Source: Clostridiaceae bacterium BRH_c20a
Lineage (GTDB): Bacteria; Bacillota; Peptococcia; Peptococcales; BICA1-8
Reading direction: 5' to 3'
Length of the DNA: 64,000 nucleotides
Assembly: GCA_000961765.1 (NCBI GenBank)
Contig: LADT01000087.1
Location: 45,409 to 109,408, forward strand
Shown piece by piece: positions 2,961-45,631 of the stretch (position 1 is the first letter of the stretch; every line of letters starts with the position of its first letter). Below the pieces are notes generated by a model. That model was not told the DNA's origin and searched no databases. It worked only from the letters and a program-made list of their open reading frames with translations. A program made the translations under genes and the position numbers.

Positions 2961-4136
2961 GTGGCAGTTTTGAGCAATGGGAAAAGAGTTTTGAGGTGGT
3001 TTTTTTCACTTTTGGTACTGATTTGTTTTACGGTAACAGCATTGGTAGGCGGTGTATTTTTCACTAATTACCAAAATTTTGGGCAGCTTCTACAGGTGGG
3101 GGCACTGATAAAGTCTGAGTTTCTATGGCCTGTTCAAACAGGTAAAATGATTGAAGGTGCTATTGAGGGATTAGTTAATTCCCTAGAGGATGAATATTCT
3201 GTTTATATGAACGCTGAAAAGTTTCAGGAGCTACAGGCTCATATTCAGGGAACTTTTGGCGGTATAGGAATCTATGTAGGTCTTAGGGAAAATAAAATCA
3301 CCGTAATAGCACCCATTGAAGGCACACCTGGGGCTAAGGCAGGTATAAAATCAGGAGATGTTATTGTTAAGATTAATGATAAATCAACTGAAAACATGGA
3401 TATAGATGAAGCAGTTGGTATCATGAAAGGTGAGCCAGGTACAGATGTTAAGGTTTCTATTGAAAGGTCTGGCGCAGAAAAGATGCTGGATTTTGAAATT
3501 ACCCGAGAAATTATTAATGTTCCTACTGTTGAAGGTAAAATATTAGAAGAAAACCCTGATATAGCTTACTTAAGAATTGCAATGTTTGCTGGTAATACTG
3601 ACGAGGCCCTTGTGGAGGAGATGAAAAAGCTTACAGACCAGGGATTTAAAGCTATGATAATTGACTTGCGGGATAACCCTGGAGGAGATTTACACACTGT
3701 GGTTAATATAGCTGGGCATTTTATTCCGGCTGGACCAGTAGTACATATTGTAAATAATAATGATAAAACTGAAACTCTCCCCGCTCAAGGCAATTATATT
3801 AAGGTCCCTCTTGTTGTACTAATAAATGGGGGAAGTGCTAGTGCTTCAGAGATACTGGCAGGTGCTGTTAAGGATACTGGAGTAGGTACTCTTGTAGGCA
3901 CAAAAACCTTTGGCAAAGGGATAGTTCAGTCTATTTTCTTTCTAAACAAAGGGGCGGGACTAAAGCTAACTACTGCTAAATATTTAACACCTAACAAAAA
4001 CGATATCCATGAAAAAGGAATTGAACCTGATATTCTAGTGGAACTGCCTGAATTTACACCTGAGCAGAAAGAACCGTTAAAGGATACCCAAAAAGAAAAA
4101 GCTATTGAAATATTGGAGGGGCTAATTAATAAATAA
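2961..4136 (+). CDS. S41 family C-terminal processing peptidase with PDZ domain
   Basis: PDZ GTPGAKAGIKSGDVI, catalytic INGGSASASEILAGAVKD and GTKTFGKGIVQ motifs. Confidence 0.92.
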   Translation: MAVLSNGKRVLRWFFSLLVLICFTVTALVGGVFFTNYQNFGQLLQVGALIKSEFLWPVQTGKMIEGAIEGLVNSLEDEYSVYMNAEKFQELQAHIQGTFGGIGIYVGLRENKITVIAPIEGTPGAKAGIKSGDVIVKINDKSTENMDIDEAVGIMKGEPGTDVKVSIERSGAEKMLDFEITREIINVPTVEGKILEENPDIAYLRIAMFAGNTDEALVEEMKKLTDQGFKAMIIDLRDNPGGDLHTVVNIAGHFIPAGPVVHIVNNNDKTETLPAQGNYIKVPLVVLINGGSASASEILAGAVKDTGVGTLVGTKTFGKGIVQSIFFLNKGAGLKLTTAKYLTPNKNDIHEKGIEPDILVELPEFTPEQKEPLKDTQKEKAIEILEGLINK

Positions 4137-4245
4137 GGTTAAGGTTAAGGTTAAGGTTGAGGTTAAGGTTAAGGTTAAGGTTAAGGTTGAGGTTAAGGTT
4201 AAGGTTAAGGTTAAGGTTAAGGTTAAGGTTGAGGTTAAGATTGAG
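4134..4245 (+). repeat. Hexanucleotide tandem repeat (GGTTAA/GGTTGA)n
   Basis: Direct reading of about 18 consecutive AAGGTT units. Confidence 0.95.
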
Positions 4246-4518
4246 ATTTAAGATTTCGCTTCGCTAGACTGAGATTAAAGAATGTGAAGTATCAATTATA
4301 GAGGCAAGGCTTGTCTCTGTTCTGAGCAAGGAGAGCAGACGCAAGGCCTTCCAATATGAGTAAATGTTTATTTATCTCAACCTTAACCTAGCGAAGCGGA
4401 ACCTTAGCCTTTGTTTTCTGTAGCACTGTAGCACTGTAGCACCGACATGCTGTATAGCCTATGAGCTTTCGCACAGACCTTCTGTACACCCTGTGAGCAA
4501 TTGAGAGGAGAACTACCT

Positions 4519-11265: not shown

Positions 11266-11637
11266 AGGCTAAGCCTCCTATTTTTAAGTGACTGGTGACT
11301 AGTGACTAGTGACTAATAATAAGTTTATAGTCTTATAGGATATTTTTTACGTCTGACACGAACATTGAATGATACTTCATTAAGTAGTGGGCAATGCAAT
11401 CTCCAAAGTTCTTTATTTTTCTCAACCTCAACCTCAACCTCAACCTTATTCTTTTTCTCGCCCACTCATAGACTATTTAATATTGGTAGGGTAACCAATA
11501 ATTACATATAATATTTATCTTTAGGCAATTAGGTTTCACAGAAACCTGAAAGAAAATGTGATATAATCACAAATTAGAAGAGAATACTTTTAACTGCTAA
11601 AGGTAATGGCTCATAGTAAATAGGATGGTGGTTCTTT

Positions 11638-13620: not shown

Positions 13621-13643
13621 CTTTGGGGACATTCCTTGGGTCA

Positions 13644-14015
13644 GTGTCATCATGCATGTTAAGCTTTTTTGACGTGTCCACATGAATGTCTAGCTCACAT
13701 GACGTGTCACGATGAAAGGCAATTTGCCGGGATGTGTCATCGAATGAGATAGAGAAATATGGGCTAATATCAAGGGATGCATCCTATGCATGTGAATATT
13801 TCCTGAGCATCTGCACCTGGGTGTTGCTTAAAGGATGCATCAAAATAAACTGGCATTCATCTGATGCATCATGCAGTAAAACCTAATAGTAGATGCATCC
13901 TAAAAAGATGACATTCATCAGATTCCTTTCGGCGGCACGATGTCACGGACATGCAGAATCACTATTAAGCCGGCACACTGACATGCAGTATATCACATAA
14001 GCGACACACTGACCT
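13644..14015. repeat. Degenerate ~29-32 bp period repeat array in uvrB-uvrA gap
   Basis: GTGTC at 13644/13674/13704/13734; GATGC[AC]TC-type anchors at 13776/(13805)/13834/13863/13892; ACATGCAG at 13949/13981. Confidence 0.7.
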
Positions 14016-14050
14016 TTAAGCTAGACCCAGAAGAAAATGGAGGAGTAATA

Positions 14051-16879
14051 ATGGCAAAAGATACAATAATAGTCAAGGGAGCAAGGGTGCATAACCTGAA
14101 AAATATAGATGTGGAGATTCCGCGGGATAAGTTTGTGGTTATTACCGGACTGAGTGGTTCGGGAAAGTCATCCTTAGCCTTTGATACTATTTATGCTGAG
14201 GGACAGCGCAGATATGTAGAGTCACTTTCCGCTTATGCCCGCCAATTTTTGGGGCAGATGGATAAGCCAGATGTAGATTATATTGAGGGCTTATCACCAG
14301 CTATTTCTATTGACCAAAAGACCACCAGTCGTAACCCTAGGTCAACGGTAGGGACGGTTACGGAAATATATGATTATCTGCGTCTTTTGTTCGCCCGGAT
14401 TGGTATACCCCATTGTCATAAATGCGGCAAGACTATTGCCCAGCAGACCATTCAACAGATGGTGGATCAGCTTTTGGCTTACCCGGAGAGGACAAGGCTG
14501 CAGATTTTGGCTCCCGTTGTCCGGGGACGCAAGGGTGAGCATCAGAAGATCCTTGAAGAACTCAAAAAAAGCGGTTTTGTAAGAGTTTTGGTTAATGGAG
14601 AATTAAGGGAAGTAACAGAAGAGATAAAATTGGAAAAAAATAAGAAACATACTATAGAAGTAGTGGTTGACAGAATTGTTATTAAGGAAGGCATAGAAAA
14701 TCGATTGGCTGATTCCTTGGAAACTGCTTTAAAGCTAGCTGAAGGTCTTGTCAACGTAGATATTATTGATGGTGAAAAACTGGTTTTTAGTCAGAATTTT
14801 GCCTGTGTAGACTGTGGTATCAGTTTTGCTGAAATGGCTCCCCGGATGTTTTCCTTTAATAGTCCTTATGGGGCCTGTCCAGAATGTGATGGACTAGGGG
14901 CAAAAATGGAAATTGATCCAGATCAGGTCATTCCTGATTGGAGTCTTACTCTAGCTGAGGGTGCCATTATCCCCTGGAGTAAAAATACCAACAGCTATTA
15001 CCTTCAGTTACTTGAATCTTTAGGTAAGCACTATGGTTTTAGTATCCATACACCTGTTGATAAGCTGAAATCAGAACATTTAAACACTATTCTTTATGGT
15101 TCTGGAAATGAAAAGATAAGATTTAAATATACAAACATGTATGATGAAGCCCGAGTTTATGATACTACCTTTGAGGGCGTAATACCCAACCTGCAGCGCA
15201 GGTATCTTGAGACGCAATCTGACCACTCACGGGGGGATATTGAGCAATATATGGCTAATAAGCCTTGTCCCCAGTGTCAAGGTGCCCGCTTAAAGCCGGA
15301 GGTTTTAGCTGTAACAATCGGAGGTAAAAATATCTCCCAAGTTACCGCTTTGTCGGTATTAGAGAGCAAGGAGTTTTTTGATAAATTAGAGCTGACCGAG
15401 AGGGAAATGCTGATAGCCCGTCAGGTTCTAAAAGAAATTAAAGAAAGAATTAATTTCTTGGTAAATGTCGGCTTGGATTATTTAACACTAAGTAGAGCAG
15501 CGGGGACCTTATCAGGTGGTGAGGCACAGCGGATAAGGTTGGCTACCCAAATAGGCTCCGGATTAGTAGGTGTTCTTTATATTCTAGATGAACCTAGTAT
15601 CGGTTTGCATCAAAAGGATAATGCCCGACTCATAAAGACATTGGAACATTTGCGCAATATTGGTAACACTTTAATAGTTGTAGAGCATGATGAAGAGACC
15701 ATGATGGCGGCTGACCATATTATAGATATTGGTCCCGGAGCAGGCGTACACGGTGGAGAGGTAATAGCTCAAGGTACTGTAGAGGAAATCAAGCTAGTTG
15801 GAAACTCTATAACCGGCCAGTATCTGGCAGGCACTAAAAAAATATTAATTCCCTTAACCCGCAGGCAGCCCAATGGCAAATGGATTAATATTAAGGGTGC
15901 TAAGGAAAATAACTTAGAAAACTTAGATGTGTCTATTCCCATCGGTGTATTTACTTGTGTAACGGGGGTCTCCGGCTCTGGCAAAAGCACCCTTGTAAAT
16001 GAAATCCTCTACAAAGGATTAGTACAGAAGCTTTATAAAAATTCCAAAATTAAACCTGGTGAACACTCTGAAATAGAAGGCGTATCCTATTTAGATAAAG
16101 TTATTGATATTGATCAATCACCAATTGGGAGGACACCACGCTCAAATCCGGCAACATATACCTCAGTATTTGATACTATTAGAGAGATTTTTTCTCAGAC
16201 TCCCGACGCTAGGATGCGGGGCTATAAGCCGGGACGATTCAGTTTTAATGTCCGTGGCGGTCGCTGTGAAGCCTGTAGGGGTGATGGTATTATCAAAATT
16301 GAGATGCATTTTTTGCCTGATGTTTATGTACCATGTGAGGTATGTAAAGGCCAGCGTTATAACAGAGAAACCCTGGAGATTCGATATAAGGGTAAAAACG
16401 TCTCTCAGGTCCTAGATATGACAGTTGATCAGGCTGCAGAATTTTTCCAGAATATACCCAAAATCTACCGTAAGATAAAGACTTTGCAGGATGTAGGTTT
16501 AGGCTATATTAGACTTGGACAGCCAGCAACCACATTGTCCGGTGGGGAAGCCCAGCGGGTAAAGCTAGCTTCTGAACTCTCCCGCCGTAGTAATGGGAAA
16601 ACTCTATATATTCTAGATGAGCCTACTACTGGTCTCCATATTGCTGACATCCATAAGCTTTTAGGTGTTTTGGGACGATTGGTAGATGCAGGTGATACGG
16701 TATTAGTAATTGAGCATAATTTGGATGTTATAAAATATGCTGATTATGTTATTGACTTGGGACCTGATGGAGGTAATAAAGGCGGGCGGATTATTGCTAT
16801 CGGTACCCCAGAAGAGATCGCAGAAGTAGACGCATCATATACGGGAGAGTATTTGAAGAGGGTCATAGCTAGAGGGTAG
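14051..16879 (+). CDS. uvrA: Excinuclease ABC subunit A
   Basis: Two ABC ATPase halves, CxxC zinc motifs, [35 protein letters not shown]. Confidence 0.98.
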
Positions 16880-16884
16880 AGTAC

Positions 16885-17306
16885 TCCTGGGTGAAGATAG
16901 AGCGTCTGACAGTTAGCTTCCGGGTGAAGATAGAGCGTCTGCTATACTTCGGGGTTAATATTTTGCGTCTGACAGTGGCTTCGGAGTGAATACTGTGGGT
17001 CTGACAATACAACTGGGTGAAGATAGAGCGTCTGCTTTACTTTTGGGTTAATATTTTGCGTCTGACAATACTTATGGGTAAACATTACGCGTCTGCTAAA
17101 TGCTTTTACGTTTGTGTCAGACCCGTAAGATAGACATGTGAGTATTGTCCGACTAGCAAGCTAATCCCTTAAGTAAATGTCGGACGCAATAGTCTGTCTA
17201 CAAAGTAATTGTCAGACAGATAAATATGACCACAAAGTAGATGTCAGACGCAAAAGTATGACCATAAAGTAATTGTCTGACATGATAGACTGCCCCCATA
17301 GTAAGG
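16885..17306. repeat. Head-to-head array of 30-33 bp degenerate repeats (GCGTCTGAC ... GTCAGACGC)
   Basis: Anchors GTCTG at 16904,16937,16967,16999,17030,17060,17091 then GTC(A/G/C)GAC at 17116,17147,17179,17211,17243 and GTCTGAC at 17275. Confidence 0.92.
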
Positions 17307-17316
17307 AGGTGCCCAT

Positions 17317-19179
17317 GTGTTGCAAGATAAACTAAAAGCATTACCCAACAAGCCTGGCGTGTATTTGATGAAAAATGACGCCGAGGAAATTATTTATGTA
17401 GGTAAGGCAATCTCCTTGAAGAATAGGGTAAAGTCCTATTTTCAGAATAAAAAGCAAGATTCAGCTAAAACTAGAGCGCTAGTAAAGAATATAGCTGACC
17501 TAGAATATATTATTACTGATAGCGAAATGGAAGCTCTAATCCTGGAATGCAATTTGATTAAGAAACACCGCCCTAAATATAATGTAAGCCTAAAGGATGA
17601 CAAAACCTACCCATATTTAAAAATAACTCCCGAAGACTATCCTAGGGTAATCGTCACTAGAAATGTCTATAAGGATGGCGCTAAATATTTTGGGCCATAT
17701 ACTAGTGCAACTACCTTACGGGAAACTATTGAATTATTAAAAAGGCTTTTCCCCTTTAGAAGCTGCAACCAGAAAGTATTTATAAATGAGAGACCATGTT
17801 TAAATGCCCATATCAACAGATGTCTTGCACCCTGTGTCGGCGGAATTAATAGGGAGCAGTATAGTAAGTTAATCAAGCAGGTGATTCTCTTTTTGGAGGG
17901 TAAACAGGAGGATCTGCTGGTTAAATTAGAGAAGGACATGGAACAGGCTGCCCTTAATTTAGAATTTGAGCGGGCTGCACAGCTGCGGGATCAAATCGGG
18001 GGAATTAAGCAGGTTATTGAAAAACAAAAAATCGTATCGGGGGGTCATGAAGATCAGGATGTCATGGCTATAGCTCGAGGTTTTAATGAAGCAAGTGTAC
18101 AGGTGTTTTTCATTAGGGGTGGAAAATTGATTGGTCGGGAAAACTACTTCCTGAAAGGAACCGATGATTTAGAACGGGGAGAGGTTTTAGAAGCCTTTAT
18201 CAAGCAATACTACATCCAGCAGGACTTTGTACCTCGGGAAATACTTGTGGAGACAGAATTATCTGAAGTAAAGGTTTTAGAGCAATGGCTTACAGAGAAG
18301 AAGGGCAGTAGAGTATATATTAAGGTTCCAAAAAAAGGGGAACGGAAAGAACTATTAGAACTGGTGGGTAAAAATGCTTTGGAAGCCATGGAGAAGGTCG
18401 AACTGGAAAAACAGCAAAAGAAGGCTATGACTGAAGGGGCGGTGATGGAGCTGCAAAAGGAATTGGCATTGCAGCGGCCTCCCCTGCGGATTGAATGCTA
18501 TGATATATCCAATACTCAAGGTACGGAAAGTGTTGCATCAATGGTAGTCTTTGAAGGGGGAAAACCCAAAAAGGATCAATACAGGAGATTTAAGATTAAA
18601 ACTGTGGAAGGTTCTAATGATTTTGCTAGTATGTATGAAGTGATTAGCCGGAGATTCCGCAATGCCAACGAGGAAAAAGATATAACTGAGCAAAAAAGAA
18701 AATTTTCTATCCTCCCGGATTTAGTAATTATTGACGGCGGGAAGGGGCAACTGCAGGCGGCAAACAAAGCTATGCAGGAGCAAGGTTATGCTCACATACC
18801 TACTTATGGTCTAGCTAAACGAGAAGAATGGTTGTTTACAGAAGAACATGGAGAGCCTATAATTTTACCTCGAGCTTCTACAGCCTTATATCTCTTACAG
18901 CGTGTCCGGGACGAAGCCCACCGCTTTGCAATTACTTACCATCGTAGTCTAAGAGGAAAAAGAAATTTGGCTTCTATCTTAGATGATATTCCGGGGATTG
19001 GTGATAAACGCAAGAAAATTTTATTACAGCATTTTGGTTCTTTTAAAAAAATACAGGAGTCCAGCTTAGCAGATTTGCTGCAAGTAGAAGGAATTAATCA
19101 GAAGGTTGCCGAAGCAATATATGACTATCTTCATACACATCAGGACCTTTTATTGAGAACGAAACACAAAAAAGAGTAG
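17317..19179 (+). CDS. uvrC: Excinuclease ABC subunit C
   Basis: LPNKPGVYLMKNDAEEIIYVGKA GIY-YIG domain, UVR, RNase H-like and HhH C-terminus. Confidence 0.98.
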   Translation: MLQDKLKALPNKPGVYLMKNDAEEIIYVGKAISLKNRVKSYFQNKKQDSAKTRALVKNIADLEYIITDSEMEALILECNLIKKHRPKYNVSLKDDKTYPYLKITPEDYPRVIVTRNVYKDGAKYFGPYTSATTLRETIELLKRLFPFRSCNQKVFINERPCLNAHINRCLAPCVGGINREQYSKLIKQVILFLEGKQEDLLVKLEKDMEQAALNLEFERAAQLRDQIGGIKQVIEKQKIVSGGHEDQDVMAIARGFNEASVQVFFIRGGKLIGRENYFLKGTDDLERGEVLEAFIKQYYIQQDFVPREILVETELSEVKVLEQWLTEKKGSRVYIKVPKKGERKELLELVGKNALEAMEKVELEKQQKKAMTEGAVMELQKELALQRPPLRIECYDISNTQGTESVASMVVFEGGKPKKDQYRRFKIKTVEGSNDFASMYEVISRRFRNANEEKDITEQKRKFSILPDLVIIDGGKGQLQAANKAMQEQGYAHIPTYGLAKREEWLFTEEHGEPIILPRASTALYLLQRVRDEAHRFAITYHRSLRGKRNLASILDDIPGIGDKRKKILLQHFGSFKKIQESSLADLLQVEGINQKVAEAIYDYLHTHQDLLLRTKHKKE

Positions 19180-19668: not shown

Positions 19669-19739
19669 CTTAAGCTTCATTTCATTCCGCTAGGTTAAGG
19701 TTAAGGTTAAGGCTTAGTAATTTGTCATACAATGCCTGT

Positions 19740-19820
19740 GTCAGACGCAATAGCTAAACCTCTTGAGTTATTGTCAGACGCTCAATCTTCACCAAGAAGT
19801 ATTGTCAGACGCAACCCCTC
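19740..19820 (+). repeat. Half array of GTCAGACGC repeats (3 units)
   Basis: GTCAGAC at 19740, 19773, 19804. Confidence 0.88.
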
Positions 19821-19944
19821 AACCTATTAGCTTTGTTTTCAGGTCCCTGGTCCCTGGTCCCTGGGTACTGAACACCGATCACCGATCACCGATCACTGAG
19901 CACGCAACTAAAGAGGTTATCCCAAATAATTATATGGAGGATTT

Positions 19945-21984: not shown

Positions 21985-22722
21985 ATGGAATTTCATGGGG
22001 ATTACCATATGCATACACAGTATAGTGATGGACGAGCAACAGTTGCCGATATGGTTGAGGCTGCCCGTCTTAAGGGTCTAACGGAAGTGGGGATCGCCGA
22101 CCATGGCCCTGCTAATATTTGCACCGGGGTAAAAAACAGTAATACTTTTTTAAAAATTAAAGAAGAAACGAAATACTTAGCAGGTCATTTCCCCCAGCTA
22201 AAGATTAAGGTAGGCGCTGAAGCCGATATTGTTGGGCTAAAGGGCGAATTAGACATTACTAGAGAGGTAATAGAGGAATTAGATTATTTACTGGTTGGTC
22301 TCCATCCCTATGTAATGCCCGTAAACGCTGAAACTGCCTGGAATTATGTATTGGGAAATCAATTAGTAAAAATTAAAAAAGGACTAAGGGAAAAAGTAAA
22401 GAATATAAATACCAAAACTTTAATAGATACATTGTATAAGTATGATGTCCTAGCCGTAACACACCCAGGGTTAAAAATGGATATCGATTTTCAGGAGTTA
22501 GCTAAGGTATGTATAAAAACCGATACTGCCTTGGAAATAAATACTGGACATACCTTTCCAAAGGTGGATGATATAATACAAATTGCCGATAGCGGAGTTA
22601 ACTTTATAGTAAATAGTGATGCCCACTTTCCGGAAACTGTAGGGGAGTTTGACTATGGTCGTTATGTTTTAAATAAGGCAAAGGTTACAGAAGAAAGAGT
22701 ACTTAATGCAACTTCTGGGTGA
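21985..22722 (+). CDS. PHP-domain protein
   Basis: DYHMHTQYSDGRATVADMVEAARLKGLTEVGIADHGP, NSDAHFPE. Confidence 0.9.
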   Translation: MEFHGDYHMHTQYSDGRATVADMVEAARLKGLTEVGIADHGPANICTGVKNSNTFLKIKEETKYLAGHFPQLKIKVGAEADIVGLKGELDITREVIEELDYLLVGLHPYVMPVNAETAWNYVLGNQLVKIKKGLREKVKNINTKTLIDTLYKYDVLAVTHPGLKMDIDFQELAKVCIKTDTALEINTGHTFPKVDDIIQIADSGVNFIVNSDAHFPETVGEFDYGRYVLNKAKVTEERVLNATSG

Positions 22723-22980
22723 ACATATTGCGTCTGACAATAGCTTAAGGGTGAACATTATGGGTCGGACAATACTACTGGGTGAATATATTGCGTCTGA
22801 CAATTTCTACTGGGTGAATATTGAGCGTCTGAAAATACTATTGGGTGGAGATTATGCGTCTGATAAATTCTTTTATGCTTGTGTCAGACGCTCAAGCTAG
22901 ACCTCTGAGTAATTGTCAGACGCGTGAGCTTTGACCCTTAAGCAGATATCAGACGCTCAAGCTAGACCCATAAGTAAACG
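22720..22980. repeat. Head-to-head GTCTGAC/GTCAGAC 31-33 bp repeat array
   Basis: GTC(T/G)GA anchors at 22732,22764,22795,22827,22858 then (G/A)TCAGAC at 22883,22915,22948. Confidence 0.92.
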
Positions 22981-22982
22981 AG

Positions 22983-29416: not shown

Positions 29417-29499
29417 ATTAAGATTTCGCTTCGCTAGATTAAGGATAAAAAGGACACTTTTGCAATTTCGAGGTAACGGAGCGAAACAAACTTGTTTGT

Positions 29500-29600
29500 G
29501 TCAGACGCAAAATGATGACCCCAAAGTACTGTCAGGCGCGTAATCTTTACTCCGTAGCAATTTTCAGACGCAATATCTTAACCCAATAGAATCCCGACAA
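29500..29600 (+). repeat. Half array of GTCAGACGC repeats
   Basis: GTCAGAC 29500, GTCAGGC 29531, TTCAGAC 29563. Confidence 0.85.
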
Positions 29601-34408: not shown

Positions 34409-34445
34409 AAGGTTAAGGTTAAGGTTAAGGTTAAGGTTGAGATCA
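34409..34445 (+). repeat. GGTTAA hexamer tract
   Basis: aaggttaaggttaaggttaaggttaaggttgag. Confidence 0.95.
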
Positions 34446-34493
34446 GACTAAGATTCCGCTTCGCTAGATTTAGATTTCGCTACGCTAGATTAA

Positions 34494-35993
<1,500 letters not shown>

Positions 35994-41673: not shown

Positions 41674-43806
41674 ATGGATAAAAGTAAAGATGTCCTGGAG
41701 TTTATGGCTACTCAAGCTTATCGGCCATTGACTCAGGAGGAGCTAATTAAGCATTTTTCAATTGAAGCGCCACAAGAAATCAAAGAGTTCAGTATGACTC
41801 TAAATGAAATGGAACTAAAAGGGCAGATTATATTAACAAGAAAGATGCGCTATGGATTGCCTAAGCAAATGAATTTAGTGGTAGGTCGTATTCAGAGACA
41901 TGCTAAAGGCTTTGCTTTCTTAATTCCTGATGATGCAAATCAAAGAGATGTTTACATTAAAAGTGATGATCTTAGTGGGGCTATGCATAATGACCGAGTA
42001 GTGGTCCGCTTGCATAATCAATCAGACATAAAGAAAAAGCAAGAAGGGGAAGTAATTAGAGTCCTGGTTAGGACCAATAAAACACTAGTGGGTACCTTTG
42101 ATAGTAGTAGGCAATTTGGCTTTGTTATTCCTGATGATTCAAGGATAGGTCAAGATTTCTTTGTAGGTAAAGAAGACTTTAATGGTGCAAAAAGCGGAGA
42201 CAAGGTGGTTATTGAGGTTACCCGTTGGCCTGAAAAAAGGCGGAGCCCTGAAGGTAAAGTAATCGAAGTAATTGGTAAAAAGGGTGACCCTGGTGTAGAT
42301 GTAGTATCTATTGTCCGTAAATTCCAGCTTCCCGAAGATTTCCCCAAAGATGTATTGGAGGCTGCTGATAAAGTACCACTAAGTATATCTCCGGATGAGC
42401 TAAAAAACCGGAGGGATTTGCGGACTTTACCAATGGTAACTATTGATGGAGAGGATGCAAAAGATTTAGATGATGCAGTTACCCTAGAAATATTAGATAG
42501 TGGATTGTACCGTCTAGGTGTACATATAGCTGATGTTGGTCACTATGTTCCCGAGGGATCAACTTTAGATAAGGAAGCTTTAAAAAGGGCTACTAGTGTT
42601 TACTTGGTAGACAGAGTTATTCCCATGCTTCCTAAGCGTCTATCAAATGGGATATGCAGCTTAAACGCAGGTGAAGACCGCTTAGCCATGACCTGCTTTA
42701 TGGATATAAATAAAAAAGGTGAAATTGTCGACCATGAGATATGTGAGTCAGTTATTCATGTTAACGAACGGATGACCTATAAAAATGTTACAAAAATTCT
42801 AGAAGAGGAAGACAAAGAGCTTATTGAACGATATAAAGACTTTGTTAATACTTTTAAACAAATGAGTGAGCTTTGTTTAATTTTAAAGAATAAACGTCTA
42901 GTTCGAGGCTCCATAGATTTCGATTTTCCGGAAAGCAAAGTAATTCTTGATGAACAAGGGAAACCAATAGAAATAGCATGGCGAGAAAGGACTTTAGCTG
43001 ACCAGATTATTGAGGAGTTTATGATCTGTGCCAATGAAACTGTTGCAGAGCATTATTATTGGACAGAAACGCCCTTTTTATATAGGGTCCATGAAGAGCC
43101 TGACCAAGAGGACTTGGGGGATTTAAATAACTTTTTAGGAATTTTTGGTTTGCATATTAAAGGGATTACTGAAAAGGTTCATCCTAAAGCCTTCCAACAA
43201 ATAGTAGAGAAGGTTGTGGGTAGTCCCGAGGAGAGGGTAATTACCACAGTAATGCTCAGGTCAATGAAGCATGCTAGATATGCAGCAGATGCCTTAGGCC
43301 ATTTTGGTTTGGCTTCTAAGTATTATTCTCATTTCACTTCACCAATAAGGCGTTATCCGGATTTAGCTATTCATCGAGTAATAAAAGAAATGCTTCGAAA
43401 AGGTGAAAAACTAGAGGGTAAAAGGCTAGAACAGCTAAAAGCTAAAATGGGTGAATATGCACAACAATCCTCCTTGCAGGAGAGAGTGGCTGAAGAGGCT
43501 GAACGGGAAAGTGTGGACTTGAAAAAGGTTGAATATATGAAGCAATTTGAAGGTCAAGCATTTAAAGGTGTAGTAAGCAGTGTTACTTCCTTTGGTCTAT
43601 TTGTTGAATTAGAAAACTCCGCGGAGGGATTAGTTCATGTATCAACTATGACCGATGACTTTTACCAATATGTAGAGAAAAAGTTAACCCTTCTTGGAGA
43701 AAATACTAAAAAAGCATATCAGCTTGGTCAGGCAGTTAAGGTGCTAATAACCAGGGTAAATACCGAAGATCGACAGATAGATTTGGAGCTGGTAGAAGAA
43801 GAGTAG
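41674..43806 (+). CDS. rnr: Ribonuclease R
   Basis: TIDGEDAKDLDDAVTLE RNB motif, C-terminal S1 domain, upstream of smpB. Confidence 0.97.
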   Translation: MDKSKDVLEFMATQAYRPLTQEELIKHFSIEAPQEIKEFSMTLNEMELKGQIILTRKMRYGLPKQMNLVVGRIQRHAKGFAFLIPDDANQRDVYIKSDDLSGAMHNDRVVVRLHNQSDIKKKQEGEVIRVLVRTNKTLVGTFDSSRQFGFVIPDDSRIGQDFFVGKEDFNGAKSGDKVVIEVTRWPEKRRSPEGKVIEVIGKKGDPGVDVVSIVRKFQLPEDFPKDVLEAADKVPLSISPDELKNRRDLRTLPMVTIDGEDAKDLDDAVTLEILDSGLYRLGVHIADVGHYVPEGSTLDKEALKRATSVYLVDRVIPMLPKRLSNGICSLNAGEDRLAMTCFMDINKKGEIVDHEICESVIHVNERMTYKNVTKILEEEDKELIERYKDFVNTFKQMSELCLILKNKRLVRGSIDFDFPESKVILDEQGKPIEIAWRERTLADQIIEEFMICANETVAEHYYWTETPFLYRVHEEPDQEDLGDLNNFLGIFGLHIKGITEKVHPKAFQQIVEKVVGSPEERVITTVMLRSMKHARYAADALGHFGLASKYYSHFTSPIRRYPDLAIHRVIKEMLRKGEKLEGKRLEQLKAKMGEYAQQSSLQERVAEEAERESVDLKKVEYMKQFEGQAFKGVVSSVTSFGLFVELENSAEGLVHVSTMTDDFYQYVEKKLTLLGENTKKAYQLGQAVKVLITRVNTEDRQIDLELVEEE

Positions 43807-44683: not shown

Positions 44684-45378
44684 GGGGGTGTACTGGTTTC
44701 GACGGGGGAATTCGGTGGCTTGAGAAGCGAGTCGAGGTCGCACTAGCTCGATAAACGGTGCAAAACATTTAAACGCTAAACCAAATTACGCTTTAGCTGC
44801 TTAGGCAGCTTTACCTCTTACCTGTTGTGCCTGCGGTACAGGATAAGGGGCCACTTTAGCAGGCTACTCTTAAGTAACCGCCTTGTAACTTAGGGGAAAA
44901 TTAACATGGCTGGCTGAAGGAAATCTTGTTTGTGGGAGTTCTGGAGGCGAGACAATAAATCACAAACTACACTCGTAGATGCTCAGGTGGTCAGTCCTTC
45001 GGACAGGGGTTCGATTCAAGAAGAGTCGCCCTACCCGGTGACGGGTAGTGGAAACATCCGGCTTAATCGGTGAAACCTAAGTCCTTAAATGGATAAGGCA
45101 ATACCGAGGGGTATGAGGCGAAAGCCTACAGCCCTGTATCGACTCATAGACTGCTAAGTCAATTGATACGCAGTACTAGGATGGAAGCGGAATACATCCA
45201 TAGGGGTGTGTCCCCTTACCTTATCGCTTCCATAACACGCCGGACAACTATTAGTTGGGGACATTCCCCAACACAAGAGGAATACATTCATAGGGGTGTG
45301 TCCCCGTTCCTTGGCTAGTTGAAGATATAGTCAGCGCCTATAGAAATATAGGAACAAAGCGTCCCCTCACCTCCACCA
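44684..45378 (+). ncRNA. ssrA: tmRNA gene (ssrA), interrupted by a group I intron
   Basis: 5' GGGGGUG pairs with 3' CACCUCC-ACCA; conserved tactggtttcgacggggg; tag frame ends AKPNYALAA-stop at 44775-44804. Confidence 0.93.
45016..45361 (+). ncRNA. Group I intron inserted in tmRNA T-loop
   Basis: 5' exon ends ...GGGGTTCGAT, intron ends in G, 3' exon TCCCCTCACCTCCACCA restores the T-arm; P1 CGAUU/AGUCG with U.G; R-like agactgctaagtc and S element AAGATATAGTC. Confidence 0.88.
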
Positions 45379-45384
45379 AAATAT

Positions 45385-45422
45385 AAAAGCACTTAACAAA
45401 GTGAGTTTTGTTAAGTGTTTTT
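45385..45422 (+). terminator. Terminator after ssrA
   Basis: CACTTAACAAA-N-TTTTGTTAAGTGTTTTT. Confidence 0.85.
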
Positions 45423-45466
45423 AATTCAGTAACACTAATACTATTAATCTAATATATTAATAATGT

Positions 45467-45543
45467 CGGGGCGTAGCGCAGTTTGGTAGCGCACATGGTT
45501 TGGGACCATGGGGCCGAAGGTTCGAATCCTTTCGCCCCGACCA
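45467..45543 (+). tRNA. tRNA-Pro (TGG)
   Basis: CGGGGCG...CGCCCCGACCA cloverleaf, anticodon loop TTTGGGA. Confidence 0.96.
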
Positions 45544-45556
45544 TTTAATTAATCAT

Positions 45557-45631
45557 GGCGACATAGCCAAGTGTTAAGGCTAAGGACCGCAAGTCCTTGA
45601 TCCCCTAGTTCAAATCTGGGTGTCGCCTCCA
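45557..45631 (+). tRNA. tRNA-Cys (GCA), atypical
   Basis: GGCGACA/TGTCGCC acceptor, TCCA end; anticodon loop CCGCAAG (C33), D-loop AAGTGTTAA. Confidence 0.85.

Follow-up and report, generated by a model that had tools for sequence, protein, structure and literature searches.

In the genome of Clostridiaceae bacterium BRH_c20a, uvrA and uvrC are separated by degenerate repeats arranged in two opposed halves. This raises the question whether the array is a set of binding sites for a protein, a giant hairpin or a member of a known repeat family. We analysed the window, a stretch of 64,000 nucleotides to which the coordinates below refer unless a genome is named, together with the rest of this genome (G000) and those of its relatives, including the congener Peptococcaceae bacterium BICA1-8 (G001, a contig of which matches relative L061).

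An opposed repeat array fills the uvrA-uvrC gap

The flanking genes were read from the list of open reading frames as uvrA, with its stop codon at 16879, and uvrC, with its start at 17317. The space from the stop codon to the uvrC ribosome-binding site is filled by a head-to-head array of 7+6 units (16885-17306). The left arm (16885..17095, plus strand) starts 6 bp past the uvrA stop codon and consists of seven units of the type termed dialect A, the heads of which (GCGTCTGAC) face right. Its anchors lie at 16902, 16935, 16965, 16997, 17028, 17058 and 17089, and the resulting spacings of 33, 30, 32, 31, 30 and 31 bp reproduce exactly those given for seven units in a preliminary description of this DNA. 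The right arm (17110..17303, minus strand) contains six units in the opposite orientation, where five or six had been proposed, with anchors at 17116, 17147, 17179, 17211, 17243 and 17275 (spacings 31, 32, 32, 32 and 32 bp), and ends at the uvrC ribosome-binding site. The short centre between the arms (17089..17122) reads GCGTCTGCTAAATGCTTTTACGTTTGTGTCAGAC, and its right side resembles a 'cap', (CATGCAATGCTTG)TGTCAGACGC, that other arrays repeatedly carry at their inner end.

With at most one mismatch allowed, the anchor GTCTGAC/GTCAGAC has 22 matches in these 422 bp. This number exceeds every one of 1000 dinucleotide shuffles (mean 1.3, maximum 7), where one anchor may count twice in real and shuffled sequence alike.

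Several further arrays were found in the window. A second full head-to-head array of dialect A (5+3 units, 22711..22981) lies between a PHP-like and a RapZ-like open reading frame. Half arrays on the minus strand comprise the cap and three A units at 19737..19835, the cap and three A units at 29498..29592, and the cap and two A units at 34546..34612; the second of these aligns at 94% to the orthologous gap of G001. A single A unit with cap (11349..11375, plus strand) is located between uvrB and the divergently oriented gene for the hydrogenase small subunit. The uvrB-uvrA gap (13621..14050) carries GATGCATC-anchored units (dialect E) in its middle and older degenerate units outside, and the same gap in relatives L061, L063 and L064 holds clean dialect-B arrays.

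In addition, microsatellite families crowd the intergenic gaps, namely (AAGGTT)n, (CTGTAGCA)n, (GGTCCCT)n and (CACCGAT)n (4134-4255, 19692-19712, 34409-34438 and others), and such tracts are also found in the middle of several arrays. A second repeat element, a composite about 100 bp long (ATCAGACTAAGATTCCGCTTCGCTAGATTAAGTACCGAGCACCG...CCCAACACT), recurs in several arrays, where it lies either between the arms or next to the cap (window 34442-34545; G000:C81:209186-209279, 220620-220720 and 232400-232508).

Architecture of the arrays across the genome

The genome scan proposed in the preliminary description revealed that the unit recurs throughout the genome. Dialect A, CTTnnGGGTnAAnnTnTTGCGTCTGACA, is the dominant unit and builds dozens of arrays; the consensus from about 300 units of this genome is CTTttGGGTcAAgaTtTTGCGTCTGACA. 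Of its 33 columns, about 11 are strongly conserved, and the others vary. A pattern of three phased anchors gave 67 matches in this genome, 20 in G001, 17 in G004 and 1 in G005, and the remaining genomes of the class included in the search gave none; a reversed control had no match throughout. These counts come from draft genomes, in which several contigs stop within arrays and a gap is masked in one relative. Moreover, the unit profile was trained on the window, so that divergent units are undercounted. Most arrays of other dialects lie outside the counts.

The anchor-to-anchor spacing is 31.22 bp (sd 1.10, n=309), with 94% of the values within 30-32 bp. It corresponds to about three turns of B-DNA with a phase of -8 degrees at 10.5 bp per turn, in line with the helical phasing suggested earlier. 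Among about 100 arrays analysed, all 59 with two arms are head-to-head. Full arrays mostly sit between co-directional genes and stop 20-30 bp short of each (medians 27 and 23 bp). On either side lie paired housekeeping genes, for example those for the two halves of transketolase, for the two subunits of electron-transfer flavoprotein, for MraZ and RsmH, for GlmM and YbbR, and for HtrA and RlmH. One-armed arrays, some of which may hide an undetected second arm, are divided 18:18 between the two senses relative to transcription, and in 16 that abut one gene the head is directed away from it (counted by eye from a table). This strand balance, together with the 59 of 59 head-to-head arrays, points to a rule that acts on the DNA and not on the mRNA.

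Unit scores show no gradient along the arms (p=0.62), and growth from the centre that leaves the older units on the outside was therefore rejected. With regard to their distribution, the arrays cluster regionally on contig C81 of G000: A and B arrays are absent from C81:1-200000, a region of which a 20 kb sample is conserved in relatives, and the next 45 kb holds eight.

A neutral origin, that is, tandem repeats generated by slippage in a microsatellite-rich intergenic genome without any factor recognising them, would fit the (AAGGTT)n, (GGTCCCT)n and (CTGTAGCA)n tracts in the same gaps as well as the ordinary substitution rate inside the arrays described below. However, only some columns are common to dispersed copies and to different genera, the head-to-head rule is strict, the cap recurs, and the spacing is held to about 1 bp. 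We therefore regard a neutral origin as rather improbable.

Dialects and distribution in the family

A second dialect, B (GTCGGCATGACGGC), was fully characterised and has the same architecture as A; its consensus, GTCGGCATGACGGCTTAcGGGTtAAaaTtttgG, aligns with that of A across the GGGTnAA part. A profile-free scan of 629 gaps for a periodicity of 27-37 bp yielded candidates with GATGCATC and TGACACGTC anchors, which probably represent further dialects of shared architecture. In G003 it also uncovered a clean B array between uvrA and uvrC. The GATGCATC-anchored arrays have units of about 29-30 bp (G000 contig C7:102972-103352; G005:C184:38748-39143 and 42619-43075); two spacer types alternate in them, the anchor is a perfect palindrome, and the orientation is less clear than in A and B.

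Both A and B are present in BRH_c20a as well as in G001, and the idea of one genome-specific anchor per relative was dropped for this congener's sake. The consensus and the information profile of dialect A are the same in G000, G001, G004 and G005, with a rank correlation of column information of 0.90 between G000 and G004.

The uvrA-uvrC gap carries an array in six of six genomes of the bacterial family; in the four named relatives most of these arrays have another anchor. In outgroup genomes in which uvrA precedes uvrC, the gap is short or its periodicity is not clear. As judged from this distribution, the arrays most likely entered the junction within the family.

Turnover at orthologous junctions

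Array positions are shared between genomes. Comparison of G000 with G004 revealed 8 shared junctions, 5 and 1 private ones and 78 that are empty (odds ratio 125, p=1e-7), and 17 arrays are shared between G000 and G001 (p=6e-13); conserved gap length contributes to both tests, and the contigs were partly picked for holding arrays. Units of G000 and G004 are no more similar at orthologous loci than between other loci, which indicates that units turn over inside a fixed position. The dialect (A versus B) differs between G000 and G001 at 4 of the 17 shared junctions, including uvrA-uvrC, whereas all 8 junctions that G000 and G004 have in common kept the same dialect.

Between the congeners, some gaps show wholesale replacement of the intergenic DNA with the genes intact, as seen in G000:C26:555-632 and C19:148231-148372 compared with G001, where the replacement junctions lie near stop and start codons. 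Other loci were vertically inherited, with about 93% identity and exact gain or loss of single 31 bp units between orthologs. Moreover, arrays were lost or switched in congener comparisons. Genome-specific concerted evolution was not seen within dialect A.

Selection and possible host function

The preliminary description envisaged a role in protein binding or DNA architecture. Anchors under selection by the host would be expected to change more slowly than spacers. The main rival of our preferred reading is that a nucleoid or boundary protein binds the arrays at the junctions and that purifying selection keeps the anchors, a proposal that we consider plausible, if clearly short of probable.

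A first constraint test yielded an apparently strong difference (4.3% versus 14.4%), which was, however, inflated by the consensus-based choice of units and by paralogous alignment; little was left after correction. When orthology was assigned at the level of units, high-information columns differed less between orthologous units (2.6% versus 5.9%, p=0.014, pairs counted in both directions), and the full arrays gave 1.8% versus 7.3%. In addition, small indels tend to be rarer in arrays (0.63 versus 1.49 per 100 columns, p=0.09), and the constant dialect at the eight junctions shared by G000 and G004 likewise speaks for maintenance by the host. In contrast, cleanly aligned half arrays show no constraint (3.4% versus 4.7%, p=0.48), substitution within arrays equals that of other intergenic DNA (8.0% versus 8.1%), and the loss and switching of arrays between congeners also count against this rival. 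Between congeners, the anchors thus show weak selection that is not robust. A host function of the arrays is possible, and the binding or architectural role proposed earlier may apply, the evidence for anchor selection being weak once ascertainment was corrected.

Predicted folding of the opposed arms

The inverted halves had also been thought capable of forming a very large hairpin. As an RNA element, the opposed arms would fold onto each other in the operon mRNA, and the resulting long hairpin would control stability or processing. Predicted folds are indeed very stable, with a z of -7.3 for 16880-17310, where the imperfect complementarity of the two arms is real, and a median z of -6.6 over 33 arrays; most arrays also lie between co-directional genes of evident operons. 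However, z is about -6.5 on both strands because of the inverted layout, and the sense strand folds better in only 15 of the 33 arrays. Unit-by-unit pairing between the arms is no better than after permutation (p=0.21), a test for an arm-to-arm deficit gave p=0.15, and half arrays without a partner are common, equally on both strands. An Rfam scan of the window matched a tmRNA gene followed by two tRNA genes (44692-45628) and nothing else, leaving the array without a match. Taken together, these results speak against a selected giant hairpin, and we judge a function at the level of RNA to be very unlikely.

A model for the arrays

The reading that we favour, and to which we give an even chance, is that the arrays are a lineage-specific non-autonomous repeat composed of phased recognition sites for a putative DNA-binding protein. 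A unit of 31 bp with a putative recognition site (GTCNGA core plus GGGTnAA) is repeated every three helical turns in two opposed half arrays, the tails of which abut the flanking genes and the heads of which meet at a short capped centre. A sequence-specific protein, recombinase/transposase-like or nucleoid-like, may bind cooperatively to the phased sites along one helical face. Slippage by unit lengths would let arrays grow and shrink, copies from other arrays would homogenise or replace them, and they may settle at gene junctions since they would be harmless there. The spacing of 31.22 +/- 1.10 bp, the head-to-head layout in 59 of 59 cases, the common consensus, the orthologous junctions and the dialect switches support this reading. 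Anatomy, orientation, phasing, copy number, restriction to the family and persistence in place despite unit turnover and dialect switching are observed, whereas the protein, the mode of spread and any use by the host are inferred. Against it, the flanking genes examined are ordinary housekeeping genes and include neither a binding protein nor an autonomous element, and simple slippage and recombination could keep the arrays without any protein.

More speculatively, and in our view improbably, families of DNA-binding proteins, one for each dialect, might coat the phased junction arrays and thus insulate genes or organise the chromosome. If so, the dialects would be rivals for the same junctions in the course of evolution.

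Intergenic DNA in bacteria is expected to be lean and short; this family keeps up to about 13 phased sites within conserved operons, and does so at the same junctions across genera despite sequence turnover and dialect switching. It can now be asked directly whether the arrays serve the host or are a repeat that returns again and again to safe sites, and by which protein the sites are recognised.

Comparison with known systems

We found no paper describing such arrays and, in line with the Rfam result, no match to a known repeat family; plasmids and phages gave no match either. Viral contigs contained 84 matches to a two-anchor pattern, none of which scored with the unit profile, and in three of these contigs the phased anchors lie within a shorter tandem repeat.

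CRISPR arrays likewise have periodic repeats of about 30 bp and one distinctive end; their repeats, 23-50 bp long, are nearly identical and alternate with unrelated spacers. The arrays described here differ in that a long invariant repeat is missing, only about 11 of 33 columns being strongly conserved, as well as in their shared degenerate spacers, two opposed arms and location in housekeeping operons; the array neighbours examined, housekeeping genes or unknowns, include no cas genes. CRISPR was rejected on the missing invariant repeat, as it had been from the outset.

REP/BIME elements are short, dispersed intergenic units, often in inverted groups and with folding potential, and the arrays resemble them in each of these respects. 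The genome also has 19 Y1_Tnp matches, which would favour mobilisation by a RAYT (Y1) transposase. However, the 80 kb around 30 Y1 stretches yielded a single B unit and no A unit scoring >=8 bits, in agreement with the view that this is no ordinary REP. The clean B array of G003 is accompanied by no Y1 match in that genome, and the many arrays of G004 by one. REP clusters are built of palindromic units of 20-40 nt in alternating orientation; here orientation is uniform in each arm, the palindrome is limited to the anchor core GTCNGAC, and the 31 bp phasing and several dialects set the arrays further apart. We regard REP/BIME-type elements moved by RAYT as highly improbable.

BOX and MIRU elements are modular and intergenic, vary in the number of inner repeats and often lie within operons, as the arrays do; the latter are distinguished by two opposed arms of one unit, degenerate around fixed anchors, and by dialect switches at one site. 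DNA uptake sequences (e.g. GCCGTCTGAA of Neisseria) have a short anchor, clade-specific dialects and often inverted pairs. The arrays share the dialects and inverted pairs, and the likeness to GTCTGA is superficial; unlike uptake sequences, they are phased, have a long unit in up to 13 copies, and are confined to intergenic DNA at far fewer loci.

Foldback (FB) elements and Tn7/Mu-type ends carry inverted arms of tandem binding-site repeats around a centre, and the FB repeat of Drosophila measures about 31 bp. Inverted arms around a centre, a hallmark of MITE and foldback elements, are present here as well. In contrast to these systems, no transposase, target duplication or conserved outer terminus was seen, the cap is inside, and the array neighbours examined include no autonomous partner with the same ends; orthologous gaps that lack an array exist, and their junctions are imprecise without a visible target-site duplication. 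Membership in none of these groups is established, and the closest analogues of the arrays are BIME/BOX-type repeats and foldback or Tn7-like multi-site ends.
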